Shown: piece after piece, positions 18,807 through 21,505 of the stretch
How the letters are laid out: the number at the start of each line of letters is the position of its first letter
How positions within the stretch are numbered: the stretch's first letter is position 1
From: Planktothrix agardhii NIES-204
Lineage (GTDB): Bacteria; Cyanobacteriota; Cyanobacteriia; Cyanobacteriales; Microcoleaceae
Length of the DNA stretch: 64,000 nt
Assembly: GCA_003609755.1 (NCBI GenBank)
Contig: AP017991.1
Coordinates: forward strand, 3,055,501 to 3,119,500
Direction: 5' to 3'
Notes under the pieces: model-generated
Seen by the model: only the letters and a program-made list of their open reading frames with translations
Told to the model about the DNA's origin: nothing
The model's database searches: none
Translations under genes and position numbers: made by a program

Positions 18807-19088
18807 TCAAATCCAATCTTCTTGATCGTTTTTTTTGCCTCTATAAATTTGACCTGTGGCGTGAATTTGGCGAGTTTTTTCAAATAAAGTTTCGTCGGTA
18901 TATCCCCAGGTTTGTAAGATTCTTTCTAAATCGCTTTGAATATCCTTTGCACCCGGAAAACCTCGATAGCGAATTTTTAAACGGGCTAATTCTACTAGAT
19001 TATAGTCCGTTGCTTCTTGCTCTAAAAGACTCAGAACAATCTTTCGATCAGTATTGTATTGAGGATGTTTTTGTTCTTGAGTTGTCAT
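18807..19088 (-). CDS. DUF3288 family protein
   Basis: The 93-residue protein (HPQYNTDRKIVLSLL, ARLKIRYRGFPGAKDIQSDL, then HATGQIYRGK) matches the DUF3288 family of cyanobacteria, from memory. Function is unknown. The 190 bases between it and ftrV on the same strand contain an open frame of doubtful composition, and I see no credible gene there. Confidence 0.8.
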   Translation of the reverse strand: MTTQEQKHPQYNTDRKIVLSLLEQEATDYNLVELARLKIRYRGFPGAKDIQSDLERILQTWGYTDETLFEKTRQIHATGQIYRGKKNDQEDWI

Positions 19089-19191
19089 AACTAGCGATCG
19101 CTTACCCGATTCTTGATCACAAGATTTATCCCTTTTATTATAACACTATTACAGGACTCAAAAGCAATCTAGGGAAAGTTTGTCTTTTTTA

Positions 19192-19239
19192 CCGGATCAA
19201 TTTCATTCAACTTGTATTAGAGAATGGACACTCTAATAC
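19192..19239 (+). promoter_or_regulatory. Promoter region of the RGSGR peptide gene with CCGGATCA box and inverted repeat
   Basis: CCGGATCA at 19192-19199 lies exactly 59 bases before the ATG at 19251. A TTGTATT segment (19212-19218) is -10-like, about 20 bases downstream. A perfect 9-bp inverted repeat, GTATTAGAG (19214-19222) and CTCTAATAC (19231-19239), overlaps the presumed -10 and transcription start, so it could be an operator. The box resembles the DIF1-type TCCGGA element described for HetR-dependent promoters in Anabaena, but differs at its first base (ACCGGA). Confidence 0.5.
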
Positions 19240-19250
19240 GGACAACTCTT

Positions 19251-19430
19251 ATGCGAATCTACAGCACCATTTTATTATCGACTTTGTTAGTCTCTGTCAT
19301 GACTCGTCATGCTTTTAATCCTATTAACGTTAATTTATCTTCAAAAAGTGAAGTTGTGGCTTTTCTTGCAACTGAAACCAGCACAGATATTGACACACAA
19401 GGACTTCCTCATAGGGGAAGTGGACGTTAA
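19251..19430 (+). CDS. patX: PatX/PatS-like peptide precursor ending in RGSGR
   Basis: The 59-residue product has a hydrophobic N-terminal signal (MRIYSTILLSTLLVSVM), a variable middle, and the exact C-terminus LPHRGSGR before TAA. RGSGR is the active pentapeptide of PatS and HetN, which inhibits HetR. PatX is the family of small secreted RG(S/T)GR precursors described in filamentous cyanobacteria, including non-heterocystous ones. An upstream in-frame ATG at 19224 would place the inverted repeat inside the coding region, so 19251 is preferred. The spacing to the promoter box, shared with the next gene, supports this start. A strong terminator follows. hetR is not in the window. Confidence 0.8.
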   Translation: MRIYSTILLSTLLVSVMTRHAFNPINVNLSSKSEVVAFLATETSTDIDTQGLPHRGSGR

Positions 19431-19452: not shown

Positions 19453-19522
19453 GGAGTGAGTCAAGAAAAAATAGAATCATATCTATATATTTCTTGGAAC
19501 TTGAGACTCACTCCATTTTTTT
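19453..19522 (+). terminator. Strong intrinsic terminator after the RGSGR gene
   Basis: GGAGTGAGTC (19453-19462) pairs with GACTCACTCC (19505-19514). The stem is extended inward by AAGAAA/TTTCTT, and it is followed by ATTTTTTTTACC. It separates the two peptide genes into independent transcription units. Confidence 0.85.
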
Positions 19523-19561
19523 TACCTTTGATAAGGGAATGATCAATCAGGATTTTATTGA

Positions 19562-19595
19562 TGATCCGGATCAGTAATTAAAGCATTGGTATTCA
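19562..19595 (+). promoter_or_regulatory. Promoter region of the second peptide gene with TGATCCGGATCA palindrome
   Basis: TGATCCGGATCA (19562-19573) is a perfect 12-base palindrome containing TCCGGA. Its CCGGATCA half starts at 19566, exactly 59 bases before the ATG at 19625. TTGGTATTCA near 19586-19595 could serve as an extended -10. The layout copies that of the upstream peptide gene. Confidence 0.5.
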
Positions 19596-19624: not shown

Positions 19625-19861
19625 ATGTCTAACTTTATTACCGTCTTAATGATCAGTACCATTGTGGGTTTGCCTCAGAGTTTTGACCCTCAACCTCAAA
19701 TTATGCAACAGCGTGATCCAGAACAAATTCAATCTTCCCAGTCCGGATCAGTCTTCATATCTCTGAACCCCGATCCCATAAAAGTTACACACCACAACTA
19801 TAATGATCAAAATACCAATGATATTTCTCCTAAACGCGGTGATGGACGGCGGGAAAACTGA
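19625..19861 (+). CDS. Second PatX-like peptide precursor carrying RGDGR
   Basis: The 78-residue product from the ATG at 19625 has an N-terminal signal-like segment (MSNFITVLMISTIVGLPQSF), a polar middle rich in Gln, Asp and Asn, and the end ISPKRGDGRREN. RGDGR differs from the HetR-inhibiting RGSGR at one position and is followed by four extra residues. Size, layout, position and promoter spacing match the gene just upstream, so it is probably a diverged tandem paralogue. A TTG at 19586 would add 13 residues of unlikely composition. Whether the product is processed and active is unknown. Confidence 0.6.
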   Translation: MSNFITVLMISTIVGLPQSFDPQPQIMQQRDPEQIQSSQSGSVFISLNPDPIKVTHHNYNDQNTNDISPKRGDGRREN

Positions 19862-19872
19862 TCACCGAGTGA

Positions 19873-19928
19873 GAGAATTTGTCCGCGACGCAAGCCCACC
19901 CCTGAAGGGGTGGGAGTATCAAATTCTC
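19873..19928. repeat. Nested palindrome, IS200/IS605-end-like
   Basis: The outer arms GAGAATTTG (19873-19881) and CAAATTCTC (19920-19928) enclose a perfect hairpin, CCCACCCC (19895-19902) and GGGGTGGG (19907-19914), with loop TGAA. The sequence next to the hairpin (GCAAG before, AGTATC after) resembles the imperfect-palindrome ends of IS200/IS605 elements. It lies between two convergent genes and overlaps the last bases of tldD, so it can also terminate both. Confidence 0.65.
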
Positions 19929-21327
19929 AATCTATTGCTTCCCCTCCGACAACGACATTGCTAAGGCGTAAACTAGGGCCTCCGCAACCAACAGGTAAAC
20001 CATTTTGTCCTCCCTTTCCACAACCCCCCGATTCATCCCAATAAAAGTCATCACCAATCGCTTCGATATCTGCTAGGGTGGTAAAAACATTTCCCGATAA
20101 AGTCACATCTCTAACAGGTTCTTCTAGTTTGCCATTTCTAATCATCCAGGCTTCTCCCGCAGTGAATGTAAACATTTCACCATTGGTCATTCCCCCCAAC
20201 CAATTGCGAGCATAAACCCCTTCTTTAATATCACTTAATAAGTCCTCAACGGCAGTATCACCCCGTTCGATCCAGGTATTTGTCATTCTAACTAAGGGCG
20301 GAAAATGATAATTCAAACAACGGGCATTTCCGGTGGGGACTTCTCCTAATTTACCTGCGGTTTCACGGGAATGAAGGCGACCAACTAAGGCCCCATCTCG
20401 GATCAGTTGGGTGGTGGTTGCTGGAGTTCCTTCATCATCATAAAAATAGCTTCCCCGATGTCCGGTCGGGGCTGCACCATCAAAGATTTGCAGATTTTTC
20501 GGGCCAAATTGACGGCCCAAGGTCATAACTTCTAATAAATCAGGATTTTCGTAGGTCATATCCGCTTCTGACAAATGACCGAAGGCTTCATGGACAAATA
20601 AACCCGACAAAATGGGGTCAATCACAACGGTATAAACATTCCCCTTAACGGGGGGAAGGGCTAGGGAATTCACCGCCCGCAACGCTGCACTACGAACCTG
20701 CTGATCGAGATTTGTCAGGTCTTGGTATGCTTTGCGGGAACCTGTGGTTTCCCGTCCAGTTTGTACGGTTTCCCCATTTCTGGCTGTGGCTGCAAAACGC
20801 ATTTCCATATCGACCCAAGATTGTTCTAATAGAGTTCCTTCGGAGGTGATCAGAATTATTCTTTGGGTACTATCGTTGTAGCGGACGGAAATAGTGGCAA
20901 TACAGGGGTCAACACTGCGAAGAATTTGGCCGTAGCGATCGCATAATTCTTTTTTTTCAGCTAAGGGAATTTGACGGGGATCGGTTCCAGTTAGGGGTAA
21001 GTTACAGCTATCTTGAATAATCGGAATTGGAGCGAGAATAGTTGTTTCTGTACCAATAAGTTTGGCGGCGGTGATAGCTTCACCAATGCGATCTTCTAGG
21101 GTTGAGAGGCGATTAAAACTAGAAAATCCCCATCCGCCTCGATAGCAAGCCCGAACTTGACCGCCGATGGAAAGTCCTTCACTCAAGGTTTCAATTCGAT
21201 CTCCGCGTAATAATATATCTGTTTCTTCGGCTTCTTCCAGACGAATGGCTAAATAATCAACTTGGGACTGGTAACGCCCCATTAAATCGGCCAACAGATT
21301 CTTCACATCAGCAAGCAAGCTAGGCAT
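19927..21327 (-). CDS. tldD: TldD-type metalloprotease
   Basis: TldD, with TldE/PmbA, degrades or matures small peptides such as microcins and antitoxins. The 466-residue product from the ATG at 21327 has the zinc motif HEAFGH (about residue 243) followed by LSEADM. It also has the glycine-rich C-terminal region GGCGKGGQNGLPVGCGGP that is typical of TldD. A GTG at 21381 would add 18 residues that fall inside a MITE-like repeat, so it was rejected. Its position beside peptide-precursor genes is notable but may be chance. Confidence 0.9.
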   Translation of the reverse strand: MPSLLADVKNLLADLMGRYQSQVDYLAIRLEEAEETDILLRGDRIETLSEGLSIGGQVRACYRGGWGFSSFNRLSTLEDRIGEAITAAKLIGTETTILAPIPIIQDSCNLPLTGTDPRQIPLAEKKELCDRYGQILRSVDPCIATISVRYNDSTQRIILITSEGTLLEQSWVDMEMRFAATARNGETVQTGRETTGSRKAYQDLTNLDQQVRSAALRAVNSLALPPVKGNVYTVVIDPILSGLFVHEAFGHLSEADMTYENPDLLEVMTLGRQFGPKNLQIFDGAAPTGHRGSYFYDDEGTPATTTQLIRDGALVGRLHSRETAGKLGEVPTGNARCLNYHFPPLVRMTNTWIERGDTAVEDLLSDIKEGVYARNWLGGMTNGEMFTFTAGEAWMIRNGKLEEPVRDVTLSGNVFTTLADIEAIGDDFYWDESGGCGKGGQNGLPVGCGGPSLRLSNVVVGGEAID

Positions 21328-21368
21328 AGGGGTCGGCAAGGTTGACTGTATTTCCCTATTTTGCCTTA

Positions 21369-21505
21369 TAAGTAGTTGCACAAAATAAATTACCTAGTTG
21401 AGAGAGGGAACACCGGAACAGCCCCCCCCAAACCCCCGTGCACGGGGGGTTTGGGGGGGAGGGAACAGGGTAGAGGATGTGTAATTAATTTTGTTTAGGT
21501 ACTTA
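21369..21505. mobile_element. MITE-like element, copy 1
   Basis: The 137-base element begins TAAGTAGTTGCACAAAATAA and ends TTTTGTTTAGGTACTTA, so it has imperfect terminal inverted repeats of about 25 bases. The centre is a G/C hairpin around CCCCCGTGCACGGGGGG. The reverse complement of copy 2 (23915-24050) matches it almost base for base. It contains no coding capacity. It sits 42 bases upstream of the tldD start. Confidence 0.85.

Follow-up and report, generated by a model that had tools for sequence, protein, structure and literature searches.

Planktothrix is a non-heterocystous genus, and the window analysed here (the whole 64-kb stretch of DNA) carries a short gene ending in RGSGR directly followed, on the same strand, by a second short gene whose motif is RGDGR. 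This raises the question of whether the second gene encodes a working signal precursor and, if so, whether its peptide acts on HetR or on another receptor. PatS and HetN RGSGR peptides inhibit HetR in Anabaena PCC 7120, according to the available text of PMC7761841; they have the same G-x-G-R core as gene 2, whereas their RGSGR is that of heterocyst formers and the Planktothrix gene 2 reads RGDGR-REN. A closer relative is PatX (NF047413; Elhai & Khudyakov 2018, as cited in the accessible sources), a small precursor whose hydrophobic N-terminus and C-terminal G-x-G-R are common to gene 2, and as a kind a PatX-like precursor is already known. Among the matches listed for RGDGR in open-licence PMC there was no cyanobacterial title, and no paper in it joined patX with Planktothrix. 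The tandem class described below (Asp/Cys, G-x-x-R-R) did not appear in searches of the open-licence literature; the PatX survey of Elhai & Khudyakov 2018, which lies outside that literature and is represented here by citations of it, could list the second gene.

The tandem pair and its putative control regions

Gene 1 (patX1, 19251..19430, + strand) encodes a patX-like precursor of 59 amino acids with the C-terminal end PHRGSGR, which scores 36.6 bits against NCBIfam NF047413 (heterocyst_PatX, cut-off 30). Gene 2 (19625..19861, + strand), which we call patX2, encodes a PatX-like precursor of 78 amino acids and runs from an ATG at 19625 to a stop codon at 19859-19861, with a hydrophobic N-terminus and the C-terminus ...SPKRGDGRREN. 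The original prediction had its coordinates, its motif and its position next to the RGSGR gene on the same strand right, and erred on the tail after RGDGR, which is the three residues R-E-N and not four. RGDGRREN occupies 19835..19858 (+ strand), of which 19838-19852 encode the run GDGRR that is invariant in the genus. An in-frame TTG at 19586 would give an alternative product of 91 amino acids; we prefer the ATG because it stands 31 nt behind the GTATT of the putative promoter, just as the gene 1 ATG at 19251 stands 32 nt behind its own, and because four relatives (L011-L014) have a stop codon a few codons before it. The closest named record is from Planktothrix rubescens PCC7821 (99% identity for gene 2). 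The N-terminal hydrophobic stretch reaches a 10-residue mean of 2.5, with no basic residue before it, and the protein matches NF047413 at 21.1 bits (E 4e-4), under the cut-off.

The two genes are thus neighbours of one layout on one strand, and their promoter geometry is also the same; they differ in that gene 1 ends exactly at RGSGR, with no tail, and keeps this motif unvaried in all nine genus loci. Upstream, a DUF3288 gene (18807..19088, - strand; PF11691, 130 bits) is the syntenic neighbour of gene 1 in 9/9 genus loci and in both g8 loci. Downstream, a convergent gene for a TldD-type metallopeptidase (19927..21381, - strand; Pfam PmbA_TldD domains) is likewise syntenic and adjoins the pair in 9/9 genus loci as well as in several loci of other genera. 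In g8 (L122 1822-3142, L117) a distant TldD relative, ∼31% identical to the window TldD over the matched part and perhaps its TldE/PmbA partner, stands directly behind hetR; in other genera TldD adjoins patX1-patX2.

In Anabaena, DIF1 (TCCGGA near -35) is a HetZ-dependent promoter element of patS, patX and hetR, as stated in the accessible part of PMC7377430. A DIF1-type site of the form ACCGGAT-N16-GTATT precedes gene 1 (19191..19218, + strand) and is kept in 9/9 genus loci. The promoter type proposed for the patX of heterocyst formers is, as a sequence pattern, also present before gene 2, as TCCGGAT-N17-GTATT (19565..19593, + strand), with an exact TCCGGA and GTATT in all nine. The pattern CCGGATN{16,17}GTATT has exactly two matches in the window, both at these sites, where 0.03 would be expected, and none of 100 shuffles of the window contained two. 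In the whole genome there are 15 matches (0 with the reversed control): eight lie inside long frames, four belong to one common sequence that we take to be 16S rRNA and that has a 77-aa frame 28 nt behind the match, two are the sites of genes 1 and 2, and one has no frame of at least 45 aa close behind. One of the eight in-frame matches (L246) is followed 137 nt later by another frame, of 184 aa. A sigma-70 scan gave 2 sites against 2.2 expected.

Between the genes lies an inverted repeat, GGAGTGAGT...ACTCACTCC, with a T run behind it (19453..19524, + strand; -22.4 kcal/mol), which is the likely terminator of gene 1. Its stability has a z of -3.55, 0/200 shuffles were as good, and all nine genus loci have its arms, slightly altered in G002 and G004; a simple terminator scan, which considers loops of 3-8 only, does not list it. 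To judge from these elements, each gene of the pair looks like a unit of its own in this genus, with control of the same type. Of the original proposal of a tandem pair, the analysis supports that the pair is conserved and that each member has its own promoter-like site.

A like site stands 59-71 nt before the second-gene ATG in all nine loci of the genus (g1), in 3/3 of g7 (as CCCGGA), in 2/2 of g8 and in 5/9 of the g9 second genes with a known start (G024 of g9, whose frame as read lacks the ATG, is outside this count); the g7, g8 and five g9 sites are exact or one letter off. The second-gene promoter is decayed in g3 and g5 and decayed or lost in the other 4/9 of g9, and in g6 TCCGGA is present and GTATT missing. 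Gene 1 is preceded by a like site in g3, g7 and g8, and in g9 NCCGGA occurs within 100 nt of the gene 1 start in only 1/22 rows. Shared DIF1-type control of both genes is accordingly a predicted feature of this genus, g7 and g8 and not of the whole family.

Conservation of the second gene

Both genes are intact in 9 of the 10 genus genomes searched, and the tenth (G005, 73% complete) gave a match to neither. In all nine, gene 2 is 237 nt long including the stop and stays in the same frame with no internal stop, although six of the nine proteins have only 53-60% of their residues in common with the window protein. By its open frame and its constant length, gene 2 is judged to be a real gene; its pooled pN/pS of 0.60 (gene 1, 0.61) is read as moderate constraint. 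Of its 78 columns 18 are invariant (n = 9), among them P69 and the run G72-D73-G74-R75-R76. Since 528 of 20000 column shuffles reach a five-column run, this run taken by itself is modest evidence. At position 71 six genomes have Arg and three (G003, G006, G008) have Pro, and gene 2 accordingly has, in place of the RG(S/T)GR of PatX, RGDGR in 6/9 and PGDGR in 3/9; the last two residues are EN (6), DS (2) or NT (1).

The expectation that RGDGR is conserved across the genus holds for its Asp, which is encoded by GAT in 9/9 genomes and equally in each of the 13 family second genes that have Asp, and fails for its first Arg. Because that Arg is Pro in three genomes, the conserved unit as read from the alignment is GDGRR plus two residues, with RGDGR as one version of it. 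Relatives with the second frame lacking or broken, or an Asp codon varying randomly between strains, would have spoken against the original proposal, and in the genus neither of these speaks against it. That the RGxGR likeness arose by chance in a frame that is not a gene is extremely improbable: short frames with a chance G-x-G-R do occur in six-frame lists, but this one has conservation, synteny, a promoter-like site and its match to the PatX model against such an origin.

Beyond the genus, the genus profiles were run on 61 family genomes and the PatX model on 60, a broad second-gene profile was run on 388 genomes of the order, and the stretches found were read as frames. The broad-profile set names 53 of the 61 family genomes, with the other eight (G010, G012, G042, G044, G045, G046, G058, G059) possibly outside it; in G042, G044, G045 and G046 the reading covered the 700 nt behind gene 1. 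Second genes of the form x-G-[D/C/S]-[G/S]-R-R, a class defined in the present analysis and not a published family, are present in 27/61 family genomes from seven genera, which were searched unequally. Left out of the 27 are G040, with its copy divided between two contigs, and G055, where the frame is doubtful and ends in PGKGRDDR. All but one lie directly behind patX1 on the same strand; the exception (G014, g6) adjoins TldD, and no gene 1 was seen there. Gly2, Arg5 and Arg6 are each found in 27/27, and the window's gene 2, which has them and lies behind patX1 on the same strand, belongs to the class.

At position 3, Asp or Cys stands in place of Ser in 26/27 (Asp 13, Cys 13, Ser 1); g1, g3, g5 and g8 have Asp, g7 and g9 have Cys and g6 has Ser. 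This letter requires two state changes on a 55-row HetR tree, in which G040 is labelled Cys by assumption and from which G027 and G028 are absent. Position 4 is Gly in 16 and Ser in 11, and the residue after the motif is Asp or Glu in 23/27. Position 1 is Pro in 16, Arg in 8, Gln in 2 and Lys in 1; with its first Arg in just 8/27, RGDGR as such is not supported as the conserved signal.

Gene 2 resembles PatX in the DIF1-type promoter and in its tail, as tailed RGSGR-R-E/D forms exist within the PatX family, and the second genes depart from it in having Asp/Cys for Ser/Thr and often lacking the first Arg. Six of them were scored against NF047413 (21.1, 18.0, 15.9 and 16.2 bits, and two with no match at E 1), and because all six fall under the cut-off of 30 we class them as PatX-like and not as curated PatX. 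A profile of the family second genes aligns with gene 1 from leader through motif (E 2.7e-4, probability 42), whereas the genus-only comparison aligns just ten columns (probability 4). The wider comparison is the better of the two, yet not strong, and because of the ten-column result the proposed common descent of the two genes rests on layout, promoter and the wider alignment together.

Of the family genomes that have gene 1, 17 lack the second gene or have one that escaped detection (none found in 16, split in G040), and it would therefore be dispensable there. Could gene 2 then be a decaying duplicate on its way to loss? Its patchy presence, the split G040 copy, a pN/pS that is not low and the decayed promoters of some genera would fit, but a length identical in 9/9, the invariant GDGRR, an exact TCCGGA in 9/9 and persistence in seven genera make this very unlikely. 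Where a second gene is present, the gene 1 beside it reads RGSGR or RGTGR in 26/26. Five of the 17, all of g9, have a gene 1 motif without Ser, namely RGEGR (G032, locus L148; G042, L064; G048, L043), RGGGR (G047, L101) and PGDGRKDKA (G033, L114). These motifs show that the middle residue can change in gene 1 too; on the HetR tree the five genomes group closely and are therefore not independent evidence.

HetR and the possible receptor of the second peptide

HetR is present in the window genome, with one HetR_C (PF18460) match at C1:1807800-1808036; a second HetR receptor in this genome was considered and dropped, the PF18460 search giving this match only. Across 60 family genomes 58 have one HetR_C match, G060 has two and G058 none, and this search found no second receptor for the gene 2 peptide. 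With residues numbered by motif from the published ones, R223, E253, D256 and D270 are identical in 53/53 aligned family proteins (G020 and G037, whose HetR is partial, are not among them, and the proteins of G011 and G019 were read separately, outside the alignment). D278 is kept in 52/53, with Asn in G060. At E254 the 25 g9 rows have Thr, and in these genomes the second gene either has Cys or was not found. A compensating change in the pocket was also looked for and rejected, as none of the six contact positions tracks the Asp.

In the complex of HetR-hood with PatS6, as far as the accessible text of PMC4649674 describes it, Glu253 is bonded by the Ser of the peptide, both peptide Args make contact with Glu253, Asp270' and Asp278', and the carboxyl at the C-terminus sits close to Arg223. 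By analogy, replacing Ser with Asp, losing the first Arg and extending the C-terminus would each be expected to weaken this mode of binding. Since Glu253 contacts the peptide Ser and Arg223 the free C-terminus, the comparison suggests that the gene 2 product would be a poor PatS-type HetR ligand. The original prediction that recognition by HetR would change is plausible in this light, given the contacts that PMC4649674 reports in its available part.

Gene 2 might still act as a weaker or conditional HetR ligand that enters the same pocket with lower affinity and grades the same pathway. A single HetR with a conserved pocket, the gene 1 promoter type before gene 2 in the genus, the retained G-x-G-R core and a first Arg in 6/9 genus copies are consistent with this. 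By the contacts in the accessible portion of PMC4649674, however, the Asp would face Glu253, the first Arg is frequently lost (Arg in 8/27), and HetR shows no change in step with the Asp at its six contact residues; we consider this reading unlikely. Less likely again is a decoy that has no receptor of its own, its precursor competing for export, for cleavage by PatP or another peptidase, or for passage from cell to cell. The promoter type and leader resemble those of gene 1, the conserved R-R[D/E] region could be a cleavage determinant, and export of PatX and its cleavage by PatP are published for Nostoc, as the available text of PMC12756182 has it. A pure decoy would have no need of a fixed Asp/Cys at position 3, yet this letter is constant within clades. 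The two-signal control and the decoy that had been proposed side by side are not separated by sequence.

The reading we tentatively favour, at a little short of an even chance, is that gene 2 encodes a conserved, PatX-like precursor from which a second peptide is made whose receptor specificity has changed, and that in the genus it has a promoter of the gene 1 type. It would be a functional gene with its own DIF1-type promoter, set apart from gene 1 by the terminator-like hairpin. To judge from its hydrophobic N-terminus, the precursor is probably exported, and cleavage of its block x-G-[D/C]-[G/S]-R-R probably takes place at the dibasic R-R or close to it, because a tailed PatX needs such a cut for a free ...GR end to form. 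Lacking the Ser and often the first Arg, the peptide would most likely not be a normal PatS-type HetR inhibitor. What the sequences show directly is conservation, synteny, a promoter-like architecture, the motif pattern and a single HetR whose pocket is intact; transcription, export, cleavage and a change of receptor are what we infer from these features, and the product would then be a second signal produced alongside the RGSGR signal of gene 1.

The role of hetR and patX in filamentous cyanobacteria that form no heterocysts is described as a mystery in the accessible part of PMC11298460, and the same text reports that in the non-heterocystous Leptolyngbya BL0902 the effects of PatX on transcription are basically HetR-independent, which makes a HetR-independent role of gene 2 less odd. 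A wider possibility, which we think rather doubtful, is that non-heterocystous filamentous cyanobacteria have a second channel in which the x-G-[D/C]-[G/S]-R-R peptide bypasses HetR for another receptor, RGSGR and GDGRR being read along the filament as the two parts of one message. With a partner gene that is conserved and has the promoter type in common but not the HetR-contacting residues, HetR-dependent and HetR-independent signalling could be separated directly, and the pair illustrates that the middle residue of the signal can change while the G-x-x-R-R frame stays fixed.

Tailed motifs and other PatX-like precursors

The tail of gene 2 had been regarded as out of the ordinary. PatX-like proteins elsewhere read RGSGR-R-E/D/G plus a tail, NF047413 itself extends past RGSGR, and the highest PatX-model score among the proteins tested (98.5 bits) belongs to a tailed HRGSGR-REL protein of family f33. 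A middle residue other than Ser is likewise not unique to gene 2, with RGGGRRD, RGEGR and PGC[GS]RRD occurring elsewhere. Tailed motifs are frequent in a third class, which many genomes have near hetR (RGSGR-R-x-F plus a tail), and g2, g3, g5, g6, g8, g10 and g11 have a hetR-side precursor, or its likely counterpart, with RGSGR at or near the C-terminus. The hetR-side precursor of G011 (L125 / L163) contains RGSGR twice, once internally as SRGSGRRF and once as a terminal HRGSGR.

Planktothrix too has this third PatX-like gene, also tailed, which in the window genome (G000) lies at C1:2573767-2573949 (L155 1717-1995), far from hetR (1807800), and which exceeds the PatX cut-off in 10/10 genus genomes. 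Its motif is RGGGRRDF in 8/10, RGSGRRDF in G008 and RGEGRRDF in G003. Because the third gene is mostly RGGGRRDF and gene 2 has GDGRR, gene 1 is, on the motifs read, the one PatX-like gene of the genus with RGSGR in every genome that bears it.

At E 0.5 the PatX model also matches 9/14 unrelated control genomes, none above the cut-off, and weak rows were therefore used only after frame reading; a nine-codon motif scan, dominated by repeat-driven g10 rows, served for leads only. Among the frames read, G005 has on a 5.5-kb contig (C142; L029 1327-1623 / L261) a short one with a hydrophobic N-terminus and both HRGSGR and PKPGDGRR. A phage decoy was considered for it and rejected: among phages the search gave a single row, from an Erwinia phage (E 0.2), which is not convincing, and viral contigs gave no relative. 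G017 (L072 1123-1530, - strand) has a frame with ERGSGRIEF and, at its very end, PERGNGRRD. The single precursors of family f8 (L236, L237, L242) have an internal PGCSRRD and finish with GRGSGRCEP, as though one chain bore both signals of the tandem pair. In G025 (L079 1354-1560, - strand) a short frame with a hydrophobic stretch has PPPGSGRRDS near its end, and contig C23 of G020 has a similar motif.
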